DNA from: Mycobacterium parmense
GTDB lineage: Bacteria > Actinomycetota > Actinomycetes > Mycobacteriales > Mycobacteriaceae
Direction: 5' to 3'
Length of the DNA stretch: 64,000 nucleotides
NCBI RefSeq assembly: GCF_010730575.1
Contig: NZ_AP022614.1
Coordinates: forward strand, 3,286,001-3,350,000
Both the position numbers and the translations under genes were made by a program. Below, in pieces: positions 3,576-11,171 of the stretch. Within the stretch, counting starts at the first letter, position 1. Each line of letters starts with the position of its first letter. The notes under the pieces were generated by a model that worked only from the letters and a program-made list of their open reading frames with translations, did not search any database and was not told where the DNA came from.

Positions 3576-3738
3576 CCGCCCGGCATCCCCGCCCGCACGG
3601 TCGCGGGATTGAATTCAATTGACACACAGGCGCGCTCGCTTGGCTGAAAACACGGCGTTTCACCCCGGATAGTGTTTAGCATCACACTGTCGTCTTCGGG
3701 TGCGACAGCTCGATCGTGGGGGTCGTGGGAGGTGTGCA

Positions 3739-5175
3739 ATGTCGTTTGTGCTGGCAGCACCTGAGGCGATGGCGGATGCGGCGAATCGCCTGGCGGGGAT
3801 CGGCTCGGCGATCAGCGCGGCCAACGCGGCCGCGGCGGCGCGAACGACGGGAATGCTCTCGGCCGGTGCCGACGAGGTCTCGTCGGCCGTCGCGTCGGTT
3901 TTCTCGCAGTACGCCAAGGCTTTTCAGTCCCTCACCGCGAGCGCCACCGCGTTGCACTCCCAGATGGTGCAGACCCTCACCGGAGGCGCCGGACTGTATT
4001 CCGCCGCCGAGGCCGCCAACGCCTCACCGTTGCAGACCCTGCAGCAGGATGTGCTGGGGCTGATCAACGCACCCACGAACACCCTCTTCGGCCGGCCGCT
4101 GATTGGCAACGGCGCCAACGGAACAACGAACGCGCAAGGGGTCGGCACCGCCGGCGGCCCGGGCGGCTTCCTCCTCGGCAACGGCGGCAACGGTGGGAAC
4201 AGCACCGCGACGGGGGCGGCCGGCGGGGCGGGCGGCGCGGGCGGCTTCCTGTCCGGCGTCGGCGGCAACGGGGGCACCGGCGGCGCGGGTGCACTCGGCG
4301 GGGCCGGCGGGACCGGCGGCCTGCTGGGCGGGGCCGGCGGCACCGGCGCGGCCGGTCCGGGCACCGTCCCGCTCACGCTGCAGAACGGGCGGCTCGTGGC
4401 GACCATCTCGATCGGCAGCGGGCCCAACGCTCAGGTGATCGTCGACACCGGGTCGAAGGGCCTCATCGTGCCGCCCCAGGACGTCAACCTGTCGAGCCTC
4501 GGCGCGGCCACCGGGTCGGGACAGGTCACGTACGGCGAGCCCGGGAACTACCTGACCGAGTACTACAACACCTATTCGGCGACGGTGAATTTCGGCAACG
4601 GCATGGTCACCACGCCGACTTCGGTCGCCGTCGTCACCTCGGCGACCTCAAACGGCGTGCCCTATGCGGCCTCCCAGGCGCCGGCGATCCTGGGCATCGG
4701 GGTGAACTCCGGCGGCCCGGTCTCCACCAGTCCGGTGACGTCGCTGACGGGATCGTACGGCCAGGGCGTGCTGCTCAACGAACCCAACGGGACAATGACG
4801 TTCGGGTCCAACCTGTTTCCGAGTTCGGGGTCGGTCAGCGGCGCGCCCGTCACCACCGTCGACGTGCGGATCGACGGCGGCACCCTCACGTCGACATCCG
4901 GCGCGTTCATCGACTCCGGCGGCTTGTACGGTGACGTCCCGACCGCCCTCAACCCACCCGACATCGGCGGTTACGTGGCGCCCGGCACCACCATCTCGGT
5001 CTACAACACCGGCGGCACGCTGCTGTACACGACGACCACCGGCGTCGACCAGACGGTGGTCGTGTCGAGCTTTGCGGGCGGAACCTTCAACACCGGTCTC
5101 GCGCCGTTCCTCGAGGACCCGATCTACCTCTCGTACAGCCCCACCGGTACCGGATCGATCTTCTTCGACACCTGA
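3739..5175 (+). CDS. PE_PGRS-type protein with aspartic protease domain
   Basis: 478 residues from ATG 3739 (MSFVLAAPE, the canonical PE start; the frame is open upstream to 3700). Residues 1-100 are a PE domain ending in the type VII secretion signal Y87-S-A-A-E91 and EAANASPL. A linker to about 130 is followed by a short glycine-rich PGRS stretch (about 135-206) with GGAGG/GNGG units. From about 210 there is a pepsin-like aspartic protease: first catalytic motif V-D236-T-G-S in [13 protein letters not shown], second I-D392-S-G-G in [12 protein letters not shown]. This architecture is known from M. tuberculosis PE_PGRS35 and M. marinum PecA, which cleave ESX-5 substrates at the cell surface. 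The last 52 bases overlap a convergent gene. There is no adjacent PPE partner. Confidence 0.92.
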
Positions 5176-5531
5176 GCTCGGCTCCCCGCCCAGACCGCCC
5201 ACAGCAGCACGGTCGAGATTTCGGCGCCCACGCTGATCGCGGCATAGGGCGAAGGATCCCAGCCGCGTTCGGAGAATCCTAGCACGCCAACGGTTCTCGA
5301 CATGGCAAACGCAGCCAGCGACCCGCCGGCCACCGCGGCCGCGGCCCAGCGCAGCCACCCCGGGCCGCCTAGGAGGATCAACAGCGCCAGGGAAAACGAT
5401 ATGGCGGCCTGGGCCAGGAACGCCGCGCCGATGCCCGGGATATGTTGGTAGCCGTGAACATACAGGTACGCGTGACTGGTGGCGCTTGCCGCCAGCGTCG
5501 TGGCCAGGCCGATTCGTGATAAGAAAGTCAT
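5124..5531 (-). CDS. Small four-helix membrane protein (DoxX-like)
   Basis: 135 residues. ATG overlaps the stop of the upstream metallophosphoesterase gene (ATGA at 5528-5531). Hydrophobic segments lie at about residues 5-25, 35-56, 62-82 and 97-115, giving four predicted helices with a short charged tail ([13 protein letters not shown]). The general layout resembles small DoxX/DoxD-type membrane proteins, but no diagnostic motif is conserved, so the family assignment is tentative. It is the last gene of a six-gene minus-strand operon with sigma factor, Rieske and cupredoxin genes, which suggests a membrane redox role. Its 3' end runs 52 bases into the 3' end of the convergent PE_PGRS gene. 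Confidence 0.75.
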
Positions 5532-6454
5532 TGCAGCGTAGTCTCTTTGAGCGCCAGCGTGTTCTGCCCCTTGATGTAGCCGACCTCGCGGATACCCAGC
5601 GCGTCGCGCAGCTTGCCGGCGGGCAGTGTGACCGGCTTGGGCGCCGGGCCGTCCCCGGGATGCGGGAGCGGGTACGCGGTGGTCGTCCCGCTGTAGAAAG
5701 TGACGTTGCCTTCGGTCTTGGAGAACAGTTGGTGCACATGGCCGTTGAGGCAGGTGACCGACGCGAACCGGGACAGGTAGCCGAGCGCGCGGGCGGCGTC
5801 ATCGGTGCCCCAGCCCCAGCCCGGGTACATGGCGAACAGCGGGATGTGACTGAACACGATGATCGGGGTGTCGCTGGACAGCCCCGCGACGTCCTTGCGG
5901 ACGAAGTCGAGCTGGTCGGTCCCGAGGTGCCCGAGCTTGCGCAGGTTCAGCGTGTTCACCAGCGCGATCACGTGCACGCCGGCGATGTCGAAGCTGTACC
6001 AACCGTCGCCGCGCGATCCGGCGCCGAAGGCCCGGCGGTACTTCTGGCCCGCGTCGTCGACCGAGTCGTGTTCGCCGGGCACGGTGAATACGTGCGGGGT
6101 TGATATTCGGCTCATCATCTGCTTGACCTGGTCGAATTGGTCCGGAGCGGACAGATGCGTCAGGTCGCCGGTGTGGATGACGAAATCCGGTGTGTAGCCG
6201 AGCTTGTTCACCCGGTCGATCGCGCTGCCGAACGTCGCGGTGACGTCCGGGTTTGCCGCCCCGGTGAAGCCCAGGTGACTGTCGCTGATCTGCGCGAAGC
6301 GCAGGGCGGGGCGAGCCTTCGCATGCTCGGCGGCGGCGGCCCCGGCGACGTGCGAAATGACCTCGCCGCCCACGACGGCCAACCCGACCGCGGCGCCGAA
6401 CCACGCGCCGTGCCGGATCAGCTGCCGACGGCTCATCGGGAGTGGGTCGCTCAC
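5528..6454 (-). CDS. Tat-exported metallophosphoesterase
   Basis: 308 residues from GTG 6454, which overlaps the cupredoxin stop (GTGA). ATG 6436 is the alternative start. The N-terminus has a twin-arginine type signal, MSRRQLIRHG, followed by a hydrophobic stretch to about residue 40, so export in folded form is likely. Calcineurin-like motifs follow: D58-x-H60 (ISDSHLGF), G-D97 (HTGDLTH), G-E-H-D at 127-130, a late FSHIPL, and GHVH (LNGHVHQLF). The usual metal-binding asparagine of GNH[DE] is a glutamate here, a departure from the consensus. The substrate is unknown. It is cotranscribed with cupredoxin, Rieske and ECF sigma genes. Confidence 0.87.
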   Translation of the reverse strand: MSDPLPMSRRQLIRHGAWFGAAVGLAVVGGEVISHVAGAAAAEHAKARPALRFAQISDSHLGFTGAANPDVTATFGSAIDRVNKLGYTPDFVIHTGDLTHLSAPDQFDQVKQMMSRISTPHVFTVPGEHDSVDDAGQKYRRAFGAGSRGDGWYSFDIAGVHVIALVNTLNLRKLGHLGTDQLDFVRKDVAGLSSDTPIIVFSHIPLFAMYPGWGWGTDDAARALGYLSRFASVTCLNGHVHQLFSKTEGNVTFYSGTTTAYPLPHPGDGPAPKPVTLPAGKLRDALGIREVGYIKGQNTLALKETTLQ

Positions 6455-6849
6455 GACGTCACCACCACGGTGCCGTGCATCATCGGGTGGATCGAACAGA
6501 CGTAGTCGAAAGTTCCTGTCGCGGGGAACAGGTGCGAGAAGGTCGCCCCGGTTCCCATCCCGGGCGAGTGGAAGGACCCGTCGCTGGCCGCGACGGTGTG
6601 GGGCTCTTCGTCGTGGTTGGTCCAGGTGACAGTCGTTCCCGCGCGAACGGTCAACGTCGCCGGGGCGAAGGCGAAGTCGTCGATGCTGACCTGGTTGGCG
6701 CCGGCCGGCGCCGCGGTGAGGGGCGCAGTGGCCGTCGTGGGCGAAACCGGTGCGGCCGGCCCGGCATGGTGTGGAGCGGCCGAGCACCCGGCCATCAGGA
6801 GCGCACCGACGGCCATCGAGGCCATGCGGGTACGCGGCATCACGATCAT
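6451..6849 (-). CDS. Cupredoxin (plastocyanin-like) lipoprotein
   Basis: 132 residues; ATG 6840 (MPRTRM) is an alternative start. An N-terminal signal peptide ends in a lipobox-like LLMAGC with Cys22, so the mature protein is probably lipid-anchored outside the membrane. An Ala/Pro/Thr linker follows, then a single cupredoxin domain from about residue 50: VSIDDFAFAPATLTV, a first copper histidine in EEPHTV, and the closing YVCSIHPMMHGTV with Cys, His and Met ligands of a type 1 blue-copper site. It should carry electrons or bind copper. It lies 21 bases after the Rieske gene and overlaps the metallophosphoesterase gene by four bases. Confidence 0.9.
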   Translation of the reverse strand: MIVMPRTRMASMAVGALLMAGCSAAPHHAGPAAPVSPTTATAPLTAAPAGANQVSIDDFAFAPATLTVRAGTTVTWTNHDEEPHTVAASDGSFHSPGMGTGATFSHLFPATGTFDYVCSIHPMMHGTVVVTS

Positions 6850-6870
6850 GCCTGAAGATAAGGCAGCGGG

Positions 6871-7572
6871 TTACACGGATGCGTCGGGGCGCCGCGGCGC
6901 GAACACCTCGATCACGCCGTCGATCTCGCGAACCATCAAGGTGGGCAACGGCTTCGGCGCGATCGGCAACTGATGGGTGAGCACCTCGCCCACCGGCGAA
7001 AAGGACGTGGTGTGGCATGGGCAGCGCAGCCGGTTCCCGGGTGCGTCGAACCAGAGCCGACACCCCTGATGGGTGCACACGCCCGAGACCGCCTGCGGTT
7101 TGCCGTCGACGCGGCGGACGAACCCACTGACCGAACCGAGGTCAAACGGATGCATGAACCCGTCCGGCACGTCCGAACTGGCCGCCACCCGTTGCCAGAC
7201 CCCGTCGTTCGGCGCCAGTTCCCCGCCCGCGACGTCGGGCGCCGGCGAGCCGACGTCGAACACCGCCCGGTCGATGGCGACGGCGGCGGCCGCGGCGGCC
7301 GCGGCGGCCGACGTGCCGACGATCACCTGGCGCCGCGTGGTGCCTCGCGGTGGCGCCGATTCGGCCGGCGTGCCCGTCATCTGCTCGGCCAGGCGACGGT
7401 GCAGGCCGGCGAGGAACTGCTGGCTGGGGGCGTCCTCGTCGCCGATTCGGGCGGCGCGTAACTCGATCGCCGTGCGGATCTGCGCCGCCTCGAAGTCGTC
7501 GGCGGCGAAGGCCTTCGGCCGCCGGCCGTTCAGCAGATCGTCGACGTAGCGGCGCAGCCCTTGGGCGTTCAC
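6871..7572 (-). CDS. Membrane Rieske [2Fe-2S] protein, candidate redox anti-sigma
   Basis: 233 residues. Residues 1-78 form a charged, non-Rieske domain (NGRRPKAFAADDFEAA, TAIELRAARIGDEDA). Then T-T-R-R-Q at 78-82 and an Ala-rich hydrophobic stretch (about 83-101) form a membrane anchor or Tat-like signal. The C-terminal Rieske domain carries C166-T-H168-Q-G-C171 and C184-P-C186-H187: two Cys/two His cluster ligands and the disulfide pair. The start codon overlaps the stop of the ECF sigma gene (ATGA 7569-7572). An N-terminal cytoplasmic domain plus an external redox domain, directly after a sigma factor, is the layout of an anti-sigma factor. That role is an inference; no H-x3-C-x2-C zinc motif is present. 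Confidence 0.88.
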   Translation of the reverse strand: MNAQGLRRYVDDLLNGRRPKAFAADDFEAAQIRTAIELRAARIGDEDAPSQQFLAGLHRRLAEQMTGTPAESAPPRGTTRRQVIVGTSAAAAAAAAAVAIDRAVFDVGSPAPDVAGGELAPNDGVWQRVAASSDVPDGFMHPFDLGSVSGFVRRVDGKPQAVSGVCTHQGCRLWFDAPGNRLRCPCHTTSFSPVGEVLTHQLPIAPKPLPTLMVREIDGVIEVFAPRRPDASV

Positions 7573-8108
7573 GGCCCGCCTCCCTCGTTGACCTGAGCCG
7601 CCAGGCGCAGCGCCCGGTGCTGGAGCACCTTGGCATTCGCCACGCTGATCCCGAGTTCAGCGGCGGCCTGCTTGATTGAATTTGCTTGCAGGAAGCGCAA
7701 TTCCAATATCCTCCGGTACCGGGCGGGCAGGCTGTCGAGCACCTGCTCGACGCGCTGCGGCGCGTTGCTCATGGCTTCCTCGCCATCGGCGGGCTGTTCG
7801 ATGTCGTCGATCGAGGTTATCTCCCGGCCCATGGTCTGGCGCCAGTGCGCGGCCAGCACCGTCCTGGCGGTGGCCCGCAGATAGGCGCGGACCTCTGCGA
7901 CGCTCGCGGTCAGGCGCAGGGGACGGAGCGCGGCGAGGAACACCTCGGTGGTGAGGTCTTCCGCGTCGGCGCGGTTGCCTACCCGCGCGAACAACGTGCG
8001 GTACACCCAGGACGCATTGTCCTGGTAGACCGCTTCCCAGTCGGGATAACCATCGTCGGGCACCGCACGCAGCGGTCGCGGCCCGACGGCATCGTGGTGA
8101 GCCGGCAC
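7569..8108 (-). CDS. ECF-family RNA polymerase sigma factor
   Basis: 179 residues from GTG 8108, with AGGAGG just upstream. Region 2 is visible in LFARVGNRADAEDLTTEVFLAAL (-10 recognition and core binding). Region 4 is in VEQVLDSLPARYRRILELRF followed by the helix-turn-helix SIKQAAAELGISVANAKVLQHRAL. It has no C-terminal extension. The upstream flavin oxidoreductase gene ends 16 bases before it on the same strand, and the membrane Rieske protein overlaps it by four bases. It probably controls its own operon, although no clear ECF-type promoter could be read upstream. It is distinct from sigL in this window. Confidence 0.93.
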   Translation of the reverse strand: MPAHHDAVGPRPLRAVPDDGYPDWEAVYQDNASWVYRTLFARVGNRADAEDLTTEVFLAALRPLRLTASVAEVRAYLRATARTVLAAHWRQTMGREITSIDDIEQPADGEEAMSNAPQRVEQVLDSLPARYRRILELRFLQANSIKQAAAELGISVANAKVLQHRALRLAAQVNEGGGP

Positions 8109-8124
8109 GTGCCTCCTTCACCGA

Positions 8125-9561
8125 TCAATATCGGCCGGGGTTACACGAGGCCTCGTCGATCGGGTCGGCCATCAATTGGTCCAGCTTCGTCGCGGTCGCC
8201 GACAGCGCCGACTTGGCCATCCGCAGCACCCGGTCGCGCACCTGCGGCTTGGCCGAGGCGGGCGCCAGGACGTGACTCATCAGGTGGCCGAAGATGTCGA
8301 GTCGCGCCGCGGAAAGCCACGCGGTCAACCGCGGGTCGTCCAGCCAGCGGAGCTGATTGGCGTAGTCGGCCCGCGCCAGCCGCAGCCAGTCGACGTCGGT
8401 GTCGGGATGCGGCAACGGCACACACAGCTCGTTTTTGACGGCGTCGTCGCAGTAGGCGGCCTCGACGTGGGCCACCAGCGCCGCGCTGAAGATCTGCTGG
8501 CAGCCGCGCACGCTCTGCAGCGTGATGCGGCCGGGCTCGAAGATGGTTGTGGCCGGCCGCTTCTCGGCGCCGTCGGCCGTGCAGTCGACGTACAGCGCCG
8601 GGCCGAGGCCGACGGTGCCACCGTCGAGGACCATGGCGCGCGGCTCGGCGCGCAACAGGTGACCCATGCGCACGACGTCGGTGATCCGCCGCAGCTGCTC
8701 GAGTTCGGCGCGCGTGACCGTCGCGCAGCGGTACATGGTGGGCCGCACGGCCGGATCGAGGCGCAACAGCGCACCGGCCTGCTCGAGACGCACGAACAGC
8801 TCGTCGACCGACTCCGCGTCGCGGACCGCCCCCAGTTGTGCGCCGAACGCGTCCCTGACGCGCTCGGCGAACAGGGCGCCCGGCTGGATCGCCGCACGAT
8901 CCAGTAGCCACGAGTCGCGGGGCATCACCCACGTCAGCCGGTCCGGCGCGACGCCGTGGGCGAGCAGCCACAGGCAGGCGTCGATGCCCGTCTTACCGGC
9001 CCCGACGACGACGTAGTGCTCCTGCGCGGGCAATCGCGGCAGCTCGTTGGGGGCCACGCAGGCGACCCCGGGCGCCACCGCGTACGGCGGGGGGCGCATG
9101 GCGGGAACCTCGACGCGCATGTAGGTGCCGTCGACGATGCGGCGCGTGACGTCGACCGTGTACTCCGCGCCCCCCAGCGTGGTGAACCGGCCGTCGCCGT
9201 GGTACTCGCTCATCGGGAAGTAGCTGACCCGGCCCGTCGGCAGGAAACTCCGGCGCAGAACATGGGAGTAGTACGCGCAGACCTCGGCGGCGGTCGCGAG
9301 CTCGTAGAGGCCCTCGTTCCAGCCGAAGTCATCGATGGCGCCGCTGCCCAGCGGAAGCGAGTTGACGCCGTAGAACGCCGACGGCTGGTGCAGCCGCACG
9401 AAGGGGTAGGCCACGGTCCAGTGCCCACCCGGCTGGTGATTGCGGTCGACGAGCACCACGCGCGCCTGCGACTCGGAAGTCTCGGACAAGAGCGTGTCGG
9501 TGAACGCCATGCCCATGGCGCCCGCGCCGACCACCAGGTAATCGGCCTCGATGGTGTGCAT
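8125..9561 (-). CDS. FAD/NAD(P)-dependent oxidoreductase
   Basis: 478 residues from ATG 9561 (MHTIEADYLVVGAG); the frame continues a few codons upstream to 9582. There are two Rossmann motifs: VVGAGAMG near the N-terminus for FAD and HYVVVGAGKTGIDACLWLL near residue 190 for NAD(P)H. The layout resembles flavin monooxygenase-type enzymes. Motifs DRNHQPGGHWTVAYPF and LHQPSAFYGV surround the flavin site. The C-terminal 130 residues show no recognised domain. It is divergent from mmsA, sharing an 89-base intergenic region, and is the first gene of the minus-strand operon with the ECF sigma and Rieske genes. The substrate is unknown. Confidence 0.85.
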   Translation of the reverse strand: MHTIEADYLVVGAGAMGMAFTDTLLSETSESQARVVLVDRNHQPGGHWTVAYPFVRLHQPSAFYGVNSLPLGSGAIDDFGWNEGLYELATAAEVCAYYSHVLRRSFLPTGRVSYFPMSEYHGDGRFTTLGGAEYTVDVTRRIVDGTYMRVEVPAMRPPPYAVAPGVACVAPNELPRLPAQEHYVVVGAGKTGIDACLWLLAHGVAPDRLTWVMPRDSWLLDRAAIQPGALFAERVRDAFGAQLGAVRDAESVDELFVRLEQAGALLRLDPAVRPTMYRCATVTRAELEQLRRITDVVRMGHLLRAEPRAMVLDGGTVGLGPALYVDCTADGAEKRPATTIFEPGRITLQSVRGCQQIFSAALVAHVEAAYCDDAVKNELCVPLPHPDTDVDWLRLARADYANQLRWLDDPRLTAWLSAARLDIFGHLMSHVLAPASAKPQVRDRVLRMAKSALSATATKLDQLMADPIDEASCNPGRY

Positions 9562-9582
9562 ACGGCTTCCCACGCTACCCAC

Positions 9583-9624
9583 TTGTCAGCCCCGCCGACC
9601 GGTTACTAGGATATCCAAGTATCC
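9583..9624 (+). promoter_or_regulatory. Candidate mmsA promoter with overlapping palindrome
   Basis: In the 89-base region divergent between the flavin oxidoreductase and mmsA, TTGTCA (9583-9588) and TAGGAT (9607-9612) are separated by 18 bases, a plausible -35/-10 pair for mmsA. The -10 box overlaps an inverted repeat GGATA-N6-TATCC (9609-9624), placed where a repressor would block transcription. The regulator is unknown; a TetR-family protein acting on acyl-CoA genes is one possibility. These are seen by eye only. Confidence 0.45.
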
Positions 9625-9650
9625 GCTGTACCCGACAGTCGAGGGCACCC

Positions 9651-11171
9651 ATGACCAGACAGATCCCGCACTTCATCGACGGGAAGCGCACCACCGGCCA
9701 ATCCTCCCGCACCGCCGACGTCTACAACCCCAGCACCGGTGAGGTCCAGGCCACGGTGCCCATGGCCGGCAAGGCCGACGTCGACGCCGCGGTGGCCTCG
9801 GCCGCCGAGGCCCAAAAGGGCTGGGCTGCCTGGAATCCCCAGCGCCGCGCCCGCGTGATGATGCGCTTCATCGAGCTGGTCAACCAGCACAACGACGAGC
9901 TCGCCGAACTGCTGTCCCTCGAGCACGGCAAGACGCTGGCCGACGCGCGCGGCGACATCCAGCGCGGTATCGAGGTCATCGAGTTCTGCGTCGGGATCCC
10001 GCACCTGCTCAAGGGCGAGTACAGCGAGGGCGCCGGCCCGGGCATCGACGTCTACTCGCTGCGCCAACCGCTGGGCGTCGTCGCGGGCATCACCCCGTTC
10101 AACTTCCCGGCGATGATCCCGCTGTGGAAGGCCGGCCCCGCCCTCGCCTGCGGAAACGCGTTCGTGCTCAAGCCCTCTGAGCGCGACCCGTCGGTTCCGC
10201 TGAGGCTGGCCGAGCTCTTCGTGGAGGCCGGCCTACCGGCCGGTGTGTTCCAGGTCGTGCACGGCGACAAGGAGGCCGTCGACGCCATCCTGCACCACCG
10301 CGACATCGCGGCGGTCGGCTTCGTCGGCAGCTCCGACATCGCGCAGTACATCTACTCGACGGCGGCGGCCACGGGCAAGCGGTCGCAGTGTTTCGGCGGG
10401 GCGAAGAACCACATGATCGTGATGCCCGACGCCGATCTCGACCAGGCCGTCGACGCGCTGATCGGTGCCGGGTACGGCAGCGCGGGCGAACGCTGCATGG
10501 CGATCAGCGTTGCCGTGCCGGTCGGAGAGCAGACCGCGGATCGGTTGCGCGCCAGGCTCGTCGAGCGGATCAACAACCTGCGCGTGGGCCACAGCCTTGA
10601 CCCGAAGGCGGACTACGGGCCCTTGGTCACCGAGGCCGCGCTGACCCGGGTGCGCAACTACATCGACCAGGGCGTGGCCGCCGGCGCCGAGATCGTCGTC
10701 GACGGACGCGACCGGTCCAGCGACGAGCTGGCTTTCGGCGACGCGAGCCTCGAGGGTGGATACTTCATCGGCCCGACCCTGTTCGACCGCGTCACCCCGG
10801 ACATGTCGATCTACACCGACGAGATCTTCGGGCCCGTGCTGTGCATCGTGCGGGCGCACGACTACGAAGAGGCGTTGCGGCTGCCCTCCGAACATGAGTA
10901 CGGCAACGGCGTGGCGATCTTCACCCGCGACGGCGACGCCGCCCGCGATTTCGTCTCCCGGGTGCAGGTCGGCATGGTCGGCGTCAACGTGCCGATCCCC
11001 GTGCCCGTGGCCTACCACACCTTCGGCGGCTGGAAGCGCTCCGGCTTCGGCGACCTCAACCAGCACGGTCCGGCTTCGATCCAGTTCTACACCAAGGTCA
11101 AGACCGTGACGTCGCGCTGGCCGTCGGGCATCAAGGACGGCGCCGAATTCGCCATTCCCACGATGAACTAG
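9651..11171 (+). CDS. mmsA: Methylmalonate-semialdehyde dehydrogenase MmsA
   Basis: 506 residues. CoA-acylating aldehyde dehydrogenase of valine catabolism, converting methylmalonate semialdehyde to propionyl-CoA (and malonate semialdehyde to acetyl-CoA) with NAD. The aldehyde-dehydrogenase fold is evident: GVVAGITPFNFPAMIPLWK, the NAD-binding VGFVGSSDIAQYIY, and GAGYGSAGERCMAISV with the catalytic cysteine. The C-terminal GGWKRSGFGDLNQHG is typical of this subfamily. Length agrees with the family. fadE9 starts 13 bases downstream and mmsB 12 bases after that, giving a three-gene valine-degradation operon. Confidence 0.96.
   Translation: MTRQIPHFIDGKRTTGQSSRTADVYNPSTGEVQATVPMAGKADVDAAVASAAEAQKGWAAWNPQRRARVMMRFIELVNQHNDELAELLSLEHGKTLADARGDIQRGIEVIEFCVGIPHLLKGEYSEGAGPGIDVYSLRQPLGVVAGITPFNFPAMIPLWKAGPALACGNAFVLKPSERDPSVPLRLAELFVEAGLPAGVFQVVHGDKEAVDAILHHRDIAAVGFVGSSDIAQYIYSTAAATGKRSQCFGGAKNHMIVMPDADLDQAVDALIGAGYGSAGERCMAISVAVPVGEQTADRLRARLVERINNLRVGHSLDPKADYGPLVTEAALTRVRNYIDQGVAAGAEIVVDGRDRSSDELAFGDASLEGGYFIGPTLFDRVTPDMSIYTDEIFGPVLCIVRAHDYEEALRLPSEHEYGNGVAIFTRDGDAARDFVSRVQVGMVGVNVPIPVPVAYHTFGGWKRSGFGDLNQHGPASIQFYTKVKTVTSRWPSGIKDGAEFAIPTMN

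Follow-up and report, generated by a model that had tools for sequence, protein, structure and literature searches.

A probable membrane-bound anti-sigma factor carrying a Rieske domain, with its ECF sigma partner and a motif-marked cupredoxin operon, in Mycobacterium parmense

Introduction

The stretch of Mycobacterium parmense DNA analysed here, of 64,000 nucleotides (the window; bases 3286001-3350000 of contig NZ_AP022614.1, the single contig of a genome of 5,952,912 bases), carries on its minus strand, at window positions 7569-8108 and 6871-7572, two overlapping genes that encode an extracytoplasmic function (ECF) sigma factor and a protein with a C-terminal Rieske [2Fe-2S] domain. Judged from sequence, the core of this locus is probably a sigma/anti-sigma switch that regulates itself and senses through an exported Rieske domain. 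The Rieske protein is likely a membrane-bound class I anti-sigma factor, and since one motif precedes both the ECF gene (P1) and the gene for a type-1 cupredoxin (P2), the pair would form an autoregulated switch over an operon of cupredoxin, phosphoesterase and membrane protein genes. That the pair controls P1 and P2 is very probable, and it is the part of the proposal in which we place most confidence.

In the proposed mechanism, the ECF factor would be co-translated with the Rieske protein (6871-7572), a predicted single-pass membrane protein whose cytoplasmic three-helix N-domain would hold the sigma factor. The Rieske domain would fold first, then be exported by the twin-arginine translocation (Tat) system and end outside, where an altered redox state or integrity of its cluster would relieve the inhibition through a conformational change or proteolysis. 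The freed sigma factor would drive its own promoter, P1, and P2, and electron exchange between the cupredoxin and the Rieske centre could close a feedback loop. Whether the signal would be the redox state of the cluster we consider evenly balanced, and the cupredoxin is a possible but doubtful redox partner of the Rieske centre.

The sigma-Rieske gene pair

The ECF protein, of 179 amino acids, has Sigma70 regions 2 and 4 alone, as is diagnostic of an ECF sigma factor, both over their curated cutoffs (Sigma70_r2, 34.0 bits against 24; Sigma70_r4_2, 42.9 against 25.7), and it also matches TIGR02937 (63.5 against 42.9). The protein encoded by the adjoining gene, a probable transmembrane anti-sigma factor of 233 amino acids, scores 49.8 bits on the Rieske model of Pfam (cutoff 20.3).

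Among named genomes, 86 relatives of the Rieske gene were identified and 80 kept, some in records that end near the gene; these are Mycobacteriaceae-type records except for one from Rhodococcus (R. spelaei, L149). The Rieske gene has the ECF gene as a neighbour in 79 of the 80 loci, the phosphoesterase gene in 74, the cupredoxin gene in 71, a small membrane protein gene in 70 and a flavin protein gene in 35, so that the clustering exceeds chance. The sequence-only reading of the window had proposed a new system whose standing depended on conservation beyond this strain, and such conservation is found. A larger set of 120 loci consists of these 80 and 40 further loci that partly repeat the same strains, and its counts are therefore not independent. 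In this set, with start codons chosen by script, 115 of 119 loci show a 4-base overlap between the two genes of the pair and three (L054, L071, L122) a 1-base overlap, and at L125 the two genes are separated and the ECF gene appears degenerate. A fusion of the two genes, suggested by long open frames, was rejected, as a shared stop occurs in 0 of 119 loci.

Anti-sigma features of the Rieske protein

The Rieske protein is composed of an N-domain (residues ~1-71), a twin-arginine pair (80-81), an alanine-rich hydrophobic stretch and the Rieske domain (~120-226). In 31 aligned relatives the twin arginine (R80, R81) and the six Cys and His residues of the cluster and the disulphide (C166, H168, C171, C184, C186 and H187) are invariant. 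The CxH and CxxH ligand patterns occur in 90 of the 93 matched proteins, the others (L212, L213, L215) sharing the N-domain only. In the AlphaFold2 model the Rieske fold reaches a predicted local distance difference test score (pLDDT) of ~92-98, residues 74-114 lie under 50, and the nearest known folds are soluble bc-type, ferredoxin and arsenite-oxidase Rieske domains.

The anti-sigma reading is drawn from the N-domain, common to anti-sigma-like proteins, from the pairing with an ECF gene, and from the predicted anchor and exported Rieske domain. At L212 and L213, from other genera, the gene after this sigma gene, again overlapping it by 4 bases, encodes a protein that shares only the N-terminus with the Rieske protein. 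These anti-sigma-like proteins (L212:5559-6215; L213:263-931), paired with the same ECF family, have a predicted exported domain of superoxide dismutase (SOD) fold, and their N-domain aligns with that of the Rieske protein over 71 residues with an hhalign probability of 99.4%. The NCBIfam anti-sigma factor model NF052375 matches 17 of 17 members of the aligned family of the SOD-fold variant, the best at 3.9e-11, below the cutoff of the model. In a fold search with the SOD-fold variant, the matches cover almost only the C-domain, and the listed rows are SOD-type or unrelated beta folds, none of them named anti-sigma.

Several observations speak against the anti-sigma identity. L212 obtains 30.3 of 100 bits on the anti-sigma model, under the curated cutoff, and NF052375 matches 8 of the 31 Rieske-type rows, with a best value of 5.9e-4, also below cutoff. 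Among the solved structures matched to the N-domain at E values of up to 10 there is no anti-sigma domain, and the N-terminal helices (3-14, 26-41 and 51-65) are modelled by AlphaFold2 with moderate confidence. The binding of the sigma factor is moreover a step that we infer, as are Tat export, release, the signal and the role of the cupredoxin. The N-domain has no cysteine and hence no zinc motif Hx3Cx2C; according to one account, class I anti-sigma domains have three helices, and this zinc motif is present in about half of the class I anti-sigma factors and is not required (PMC7406223).

If the N-domain were structural, the Rieske protein could be an ordinary electron-transfer partner of the cupredoxin, with the ECF factor as its regulator. 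This explanation, which agrees with the closeness of the Rieske domain to those of bc-type proteins, ferredoxins and arsenite-oxidase small subunits and with the intact copper ligands of the cupredoxin, is nevertheless unlikely: the N-domain stays with the sigma gene when another domain takes the place of the Rieske domain, the relatives in which this occurs match anti-sigma models, and pairs without a cupredoxin gene nearby exist (6 of 80).

A less distant alternative retains the same sigma/anti-sigma pair and gives the Rieske domain the part of an assembly or export checkpoint, for which no electron exchange outside the cell would be needed. A failure of [2Fe-2S] assembly or of Tat export, under iron shortage or oxidative damage, would then leave the anti-sigma factor misplaced, lead to its degradation and set the sigma factor free. 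The invariant twin arginine beside the anchor and the TAT_signal model, which matches 23 of the 31 rows (E up to 0.5), would make the placement of the protein depend on a folded cluster domain, in line with such a checkpoint; however, a type-1 cupredoxin is the constant element among the linked targets, which suggests electron traffic, even if some lineages have other targets. We give this version a minor though appreciable share of the probability. The anti-sigma factor with a sensing cluster is the preferred reading, and the proposal of the sequence-only reading, with the Rieske centre as sensor and the sigma factor as responder, becomes best supported once the Rieske protein is taken as a probable anti-sigma factor; the copper or redox stress that it named as the signal is still conjectural.

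A motif before the sigma and cupredoxin genes

The same motif, TGTAACC-N8-TA(T/C), occurs twice at the locus: P1 (8128-8145, minus strand, TGTAACC-N8-TAT) lies before the ECF gene and P2 (6858-6875, minus strand) before the cupredoxin gene, overlapping the ends of the flavin and the Rieske gene, respectively. The cupredoxin ATG starts 26 bases after the first base of P2. In the 120-locus set, a loose GTAAC pattern places the motif before the ECF gene in 116 of 119 loci and before the cupredoxin gene in 83 of the 91 loci where it runs on the same strand and in all 13 where it is divergent; a stricter pattern found it before none of 44 flavin genes. The cupredoxin site of L130 is without TA. Strict matches in the 1,759,360 bases of the 120 loci number 233, and the reversed pattern gives 5. 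At 20 of 23 loci from beyond the genus, the motif stands within 500 bases before the ECF gene, with misses at L204, L256 and L259 (at L256 a copy lies farther upstream of the ECF gene), and before same-strand cupredoxin genes in 14 of 15 cases.

The genome of the window contains four exact matches, two of them at this locus, against 0 for the control. The two others lie at L220:1501-1518, 18 bases before a gene that we take from its sequence to be MarR-like, and at L221:1501-1518, overlapping the start of a gene that we likewise assume to encode an R2-like oxidase, and both may be due to chance. A wider regulon in this genome was considered and rejected, as there are just these two further exact matches and no excess of matches with one mismatch (20 for the motif, 35 for the control); for the latter reason the regulon in the genome of the window may be limited to this locus.

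That absence of an excess counts against control by the pair, and so do the genes before which the motif was not found (3 of 119 ECF genes, 8 of 91 same-strand cupredoxin genes) and the spacing. The distance between TGTAACC and TA is 8 in 101 of 104 non-redundant sites, measured with a pattern that admitted only 8 to 10, and a distance of 7 is seen at other sites, such as those of L067-L071. As in the cupredoxin gene of the window, the ATG of DoxX genes in L073 and L204 lies 26 bases from the first base of the motif. If this ATG is a leaderless start, TA would be the -10 element and TGTAACC would lie much nearer to it than a usual -35 element, a spacing of 8 that is odd for an ECF promoter, where 16-17 is usual. 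The motif could accordingly belong to another regulator, a view that finds some ground in this short distance and in the 12 of 104 non-redundant sites where an ATG lies 11 bases from TA. Against it, the regulator seen with the motif across families is the ECF/anti-sigma pair, and the spacing would be that of a normal ECF promoter if a weaker GGTGA block, located 16 bases after TGTAACC, were the -10 element; we hold another regulator to be quite unlikely and keep to the sigma/anti-sigma pair.

Elsewhere the motif precedes other genes, whose products would share an envelope redox theme: DoxX-type genes in L073 and L127 (tested with Pfam) and in L072 and L204 (by likeness), genes similar to PAP2/vanadium haloperoxidases in L206 and L213, Lipoprotein_15 genes in L212 and L213, and genes for small exported proteins in L125, L127 and L244. 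The PAP2 model of Pfam is above its cutoff for L213 and for a gene of L212 and below it for L206; the haloperoxidase label of these genes is in part our presumption.

Target genes and neighbourhood

The sequence-only reading had joined the pair with four further minus-strand genes into a single redox operon. The six genes, their coordinates and the gaps between them (16, -4, 21, -4 and -4 bases) agree with the open reading frames, and its domain assignments were borne out by Pfam and NCBIfam searches; the single operon did not stand. Internal promoters, which it had regarded as an objection, are present at the level of the motif, before the ECF and cupredoxin genes, yet both parts look co-regulated.

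The first of the six genes (8125-9561, minus strand; an alternative GTG start at 9582 is possible) encodes a flavin/NAD(P)-binding protein, with NAD_binding_8 and NAD_binding_9 barely over their Pfam cutoffs, and is situated between mmsA and the ECF/Rieske pair. One operon including this oxidoreductase would fit the tight packing in the window, the position of the flavin gene, which adjoins the ECF gene in all 35 of the 80 loci that have it, and the absence of a terminator-like site within window 5000-9700. It is opposed by the 45 of 80 loci without the flavin gene and by the motifs, absent before the flavin gene and present before the ECF and cupredoxin genes; furthermore, the cupredoxin genes are divergent in 13 of 120 loci, and in G067 the cupredoxin operon lies on another contig than the pair and retains the motif. 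On account of the patchy flavin gene and the internal motifs the single six-gene operon is rejected, with very little probability left to it, and the flavin gene appears to be an accessory neighbour outside the core switch.

The cupredoxin (6451-6849, minus strand), a probable lipoprotein, scores 42.3 bits on Copper-bind (cutoff 21.2). Its His, Cys, His and Met copper-ligand columns are kept in 80 of 80 aligned relatives, and a pattern search found them in only 63 of 80 because of spacing; a lipobox-like pattern, loosely defined, is present in 71 of 80. The metallophosphoesterase (5528-6454, minus strand; searched as 5531-6451), with a Tat-type signal and predicted to be exported, scores 47.3 bits on Metallophos (cutoff 21.5). 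In its relatives the motifs DxH (82 of 82), GD (80 of 82) and GHxH (81 of 82) and a twin-arginine pattern (81 of 82) are kept. By Pfam score and these three motifs it is a calcineurin-like metallophosphoesterase, but the metal-ligand Asn of GNH(D/E) is replaced by Glu, as PGEHD, in 82 of 82, and its GEHD aligns with the GNHD of Rv0805 and 2dxl. The small membrane protein (5124-5531, minus strand), of 135 amino acids, belongs to no family, with no match in Pfam or NCBIfam.

Two neighbouring features were observed in passing. A PE-PGRS gene (window 3700-5175, plus strand), with a C-terminal aspartyl-peptidase-like domain (PF20729, 281.7 bits), overlaps with its 3' end the end of the membrane protein gene on the opposite strand by 52 bases. 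A near-palindrome, TACTAGGATATCCAAGTA, at 9604-9621 between mmsA and the flavin gene, has similar sequences in 36 of the 47 loci of the 80-locus set that contain mmsA (loose pattern); loci lacking the flavin gene have them too, and the element is therefore a probable mmsA operator.

Distribution

The module occurs in several actinobacterial families. Within the genus, the Rieske protein is matched in 128 of 198 genomes at E<=0.001, a count that includes unrelated Rieske proteins, and in 78 of the 198 at E<=1e-60 (partially in G057 and G091). At the order level (249 genomes), 8 genomes that do not belong to the genus have near-full-length relatives; at the class level, 25 of 345 genomes have matches at E<=1e-25, including 9 from the genus, and some of these matches begin after residue 60, the fetched proteins carrying the N-domain with a longer linker. 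At the phylum level (396 genomes) one genome outside the genus, G606, has a relative, in two tandem copies; these Rieske-type proteins (L214:6259-7842) lie behind one ECF gene, and an additional N-domain fragment is on a separate contig.

The cupredoxin and phosphoesterase genes run in the same direction as the pair in 69 of the 80 loci, are divergent in 5 and are not nearby in 6. The phosphoesterase subfamily (E<=1e-60) is present in 13 of 201 family genomes, all 13 of which have the Rieske gene. The pair without the phosphoesterase is found in G006, G054 and G039, and in G057 the phosphoesterase lies beside a truncated Rieske gene with no ECF gene. Decayed loci were also seen: at L147/L245 the Rieske gene of M. 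attenuatum (L147) is truncated and the ECF gene absent, and L246 and L217 retain parts only.

Significance and comparison with known systems

To our knowledge, redox-sensing anti-sigma factors of actinobacteria are known mainly as cytoplasmic zinc-thiol proteins. If true, a sensor with an iron-sulphur cluster on the outer face would let envelope electron flow, copper or oxidants act directly on transcription. With a two-gene switch, two motif-marked promoters, the Rhodococcus relative and natural sensor-swapped controls, this locus lends itself to testing, and the predicted regulon (cupredoxin, DoxX, haloperoxidase-like and Lipoprotein_15 proteins) can be searched by motif.

As far as our literature search, made mainly on the openings of abstracts, reached, a Rieske sensor on an anti-sigma factor is undescribed: no such protein was found in it, the 2021 ECF classification, a possible place for this link, lying outside its reach, and the accessible parts of PMC5445863, PMC3174227, PMC2799521, PMC3599157 and PMC9283954 had incidental content only. 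We tentatively suggest, with somewhat less than even confidence, an undescribed class of anti-sigma factors in which an exported, Tat-targeted Rieske cluster would read the redox state outside the cell and exchange electrons with the cupredoxin under its control, with an N-domain that accepts other redox-type sensors, such as the SOD-fold domain in other genera, and maybe a compact promoter with an 8-base spacer.

The closest parallel is with the membrane-bound class I anti-sigma factors, among which we count RskA, RslA, RseA and RsiW: in common are the overlapping ECF neighbour, a cytoplasmic three-helix N-domain, one anchor and an exported sensor, features that for the Rieske protein are partly predicted. 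It differs from them in the Rieske [2Fe-2S] domain outside, the twin arginine before the anchor and the lack of the zinc motif, and from the solved anti-sigma domains in an N-domain without detectable sequence match to them. RsrA and RshA are soluble zinc-thiol anti-sigma redox sensors; as in these, redox state would be coupled to an actinobacterial ECF factor, but the Rieske protein has no cysteine in its N-domain and a predicted exported iron-sulphur cluster.

On the side of electron transfer, the Rieske subunits of bc1/b6f complexes and arsenite oxidase have the cluster ligands, disulphide cysteines, fold and anchored export in common with the Rieske protein, which is set apart by its extra N-domain and adjoining sigma gene and scores far below the curated cutoffs of these subunits (29.8 of 250, 23.6 of 275 and 25.7 of 95.65 bits; for the bc1/b6f Rieske equivalogs, 29.8 of 250, 23.6 of 275 and 20.6 of 97.4). 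The cupredoxin shares the His-Cys-His-Met ligands with amicyanin/plastocyanin-type proteins and differs from them in its score (52.6 bits, under the amicyanin cutoff of 110.2) and its lipoprotein-type signal. Finally, the phosphoesterase has the fold family and most metal-binding motifs of Rv0805/SpdA-type metallophosphoesterases and departs from them in its Tat-type signal and in the invariant Glu at the place of Rv0805 Asn97.

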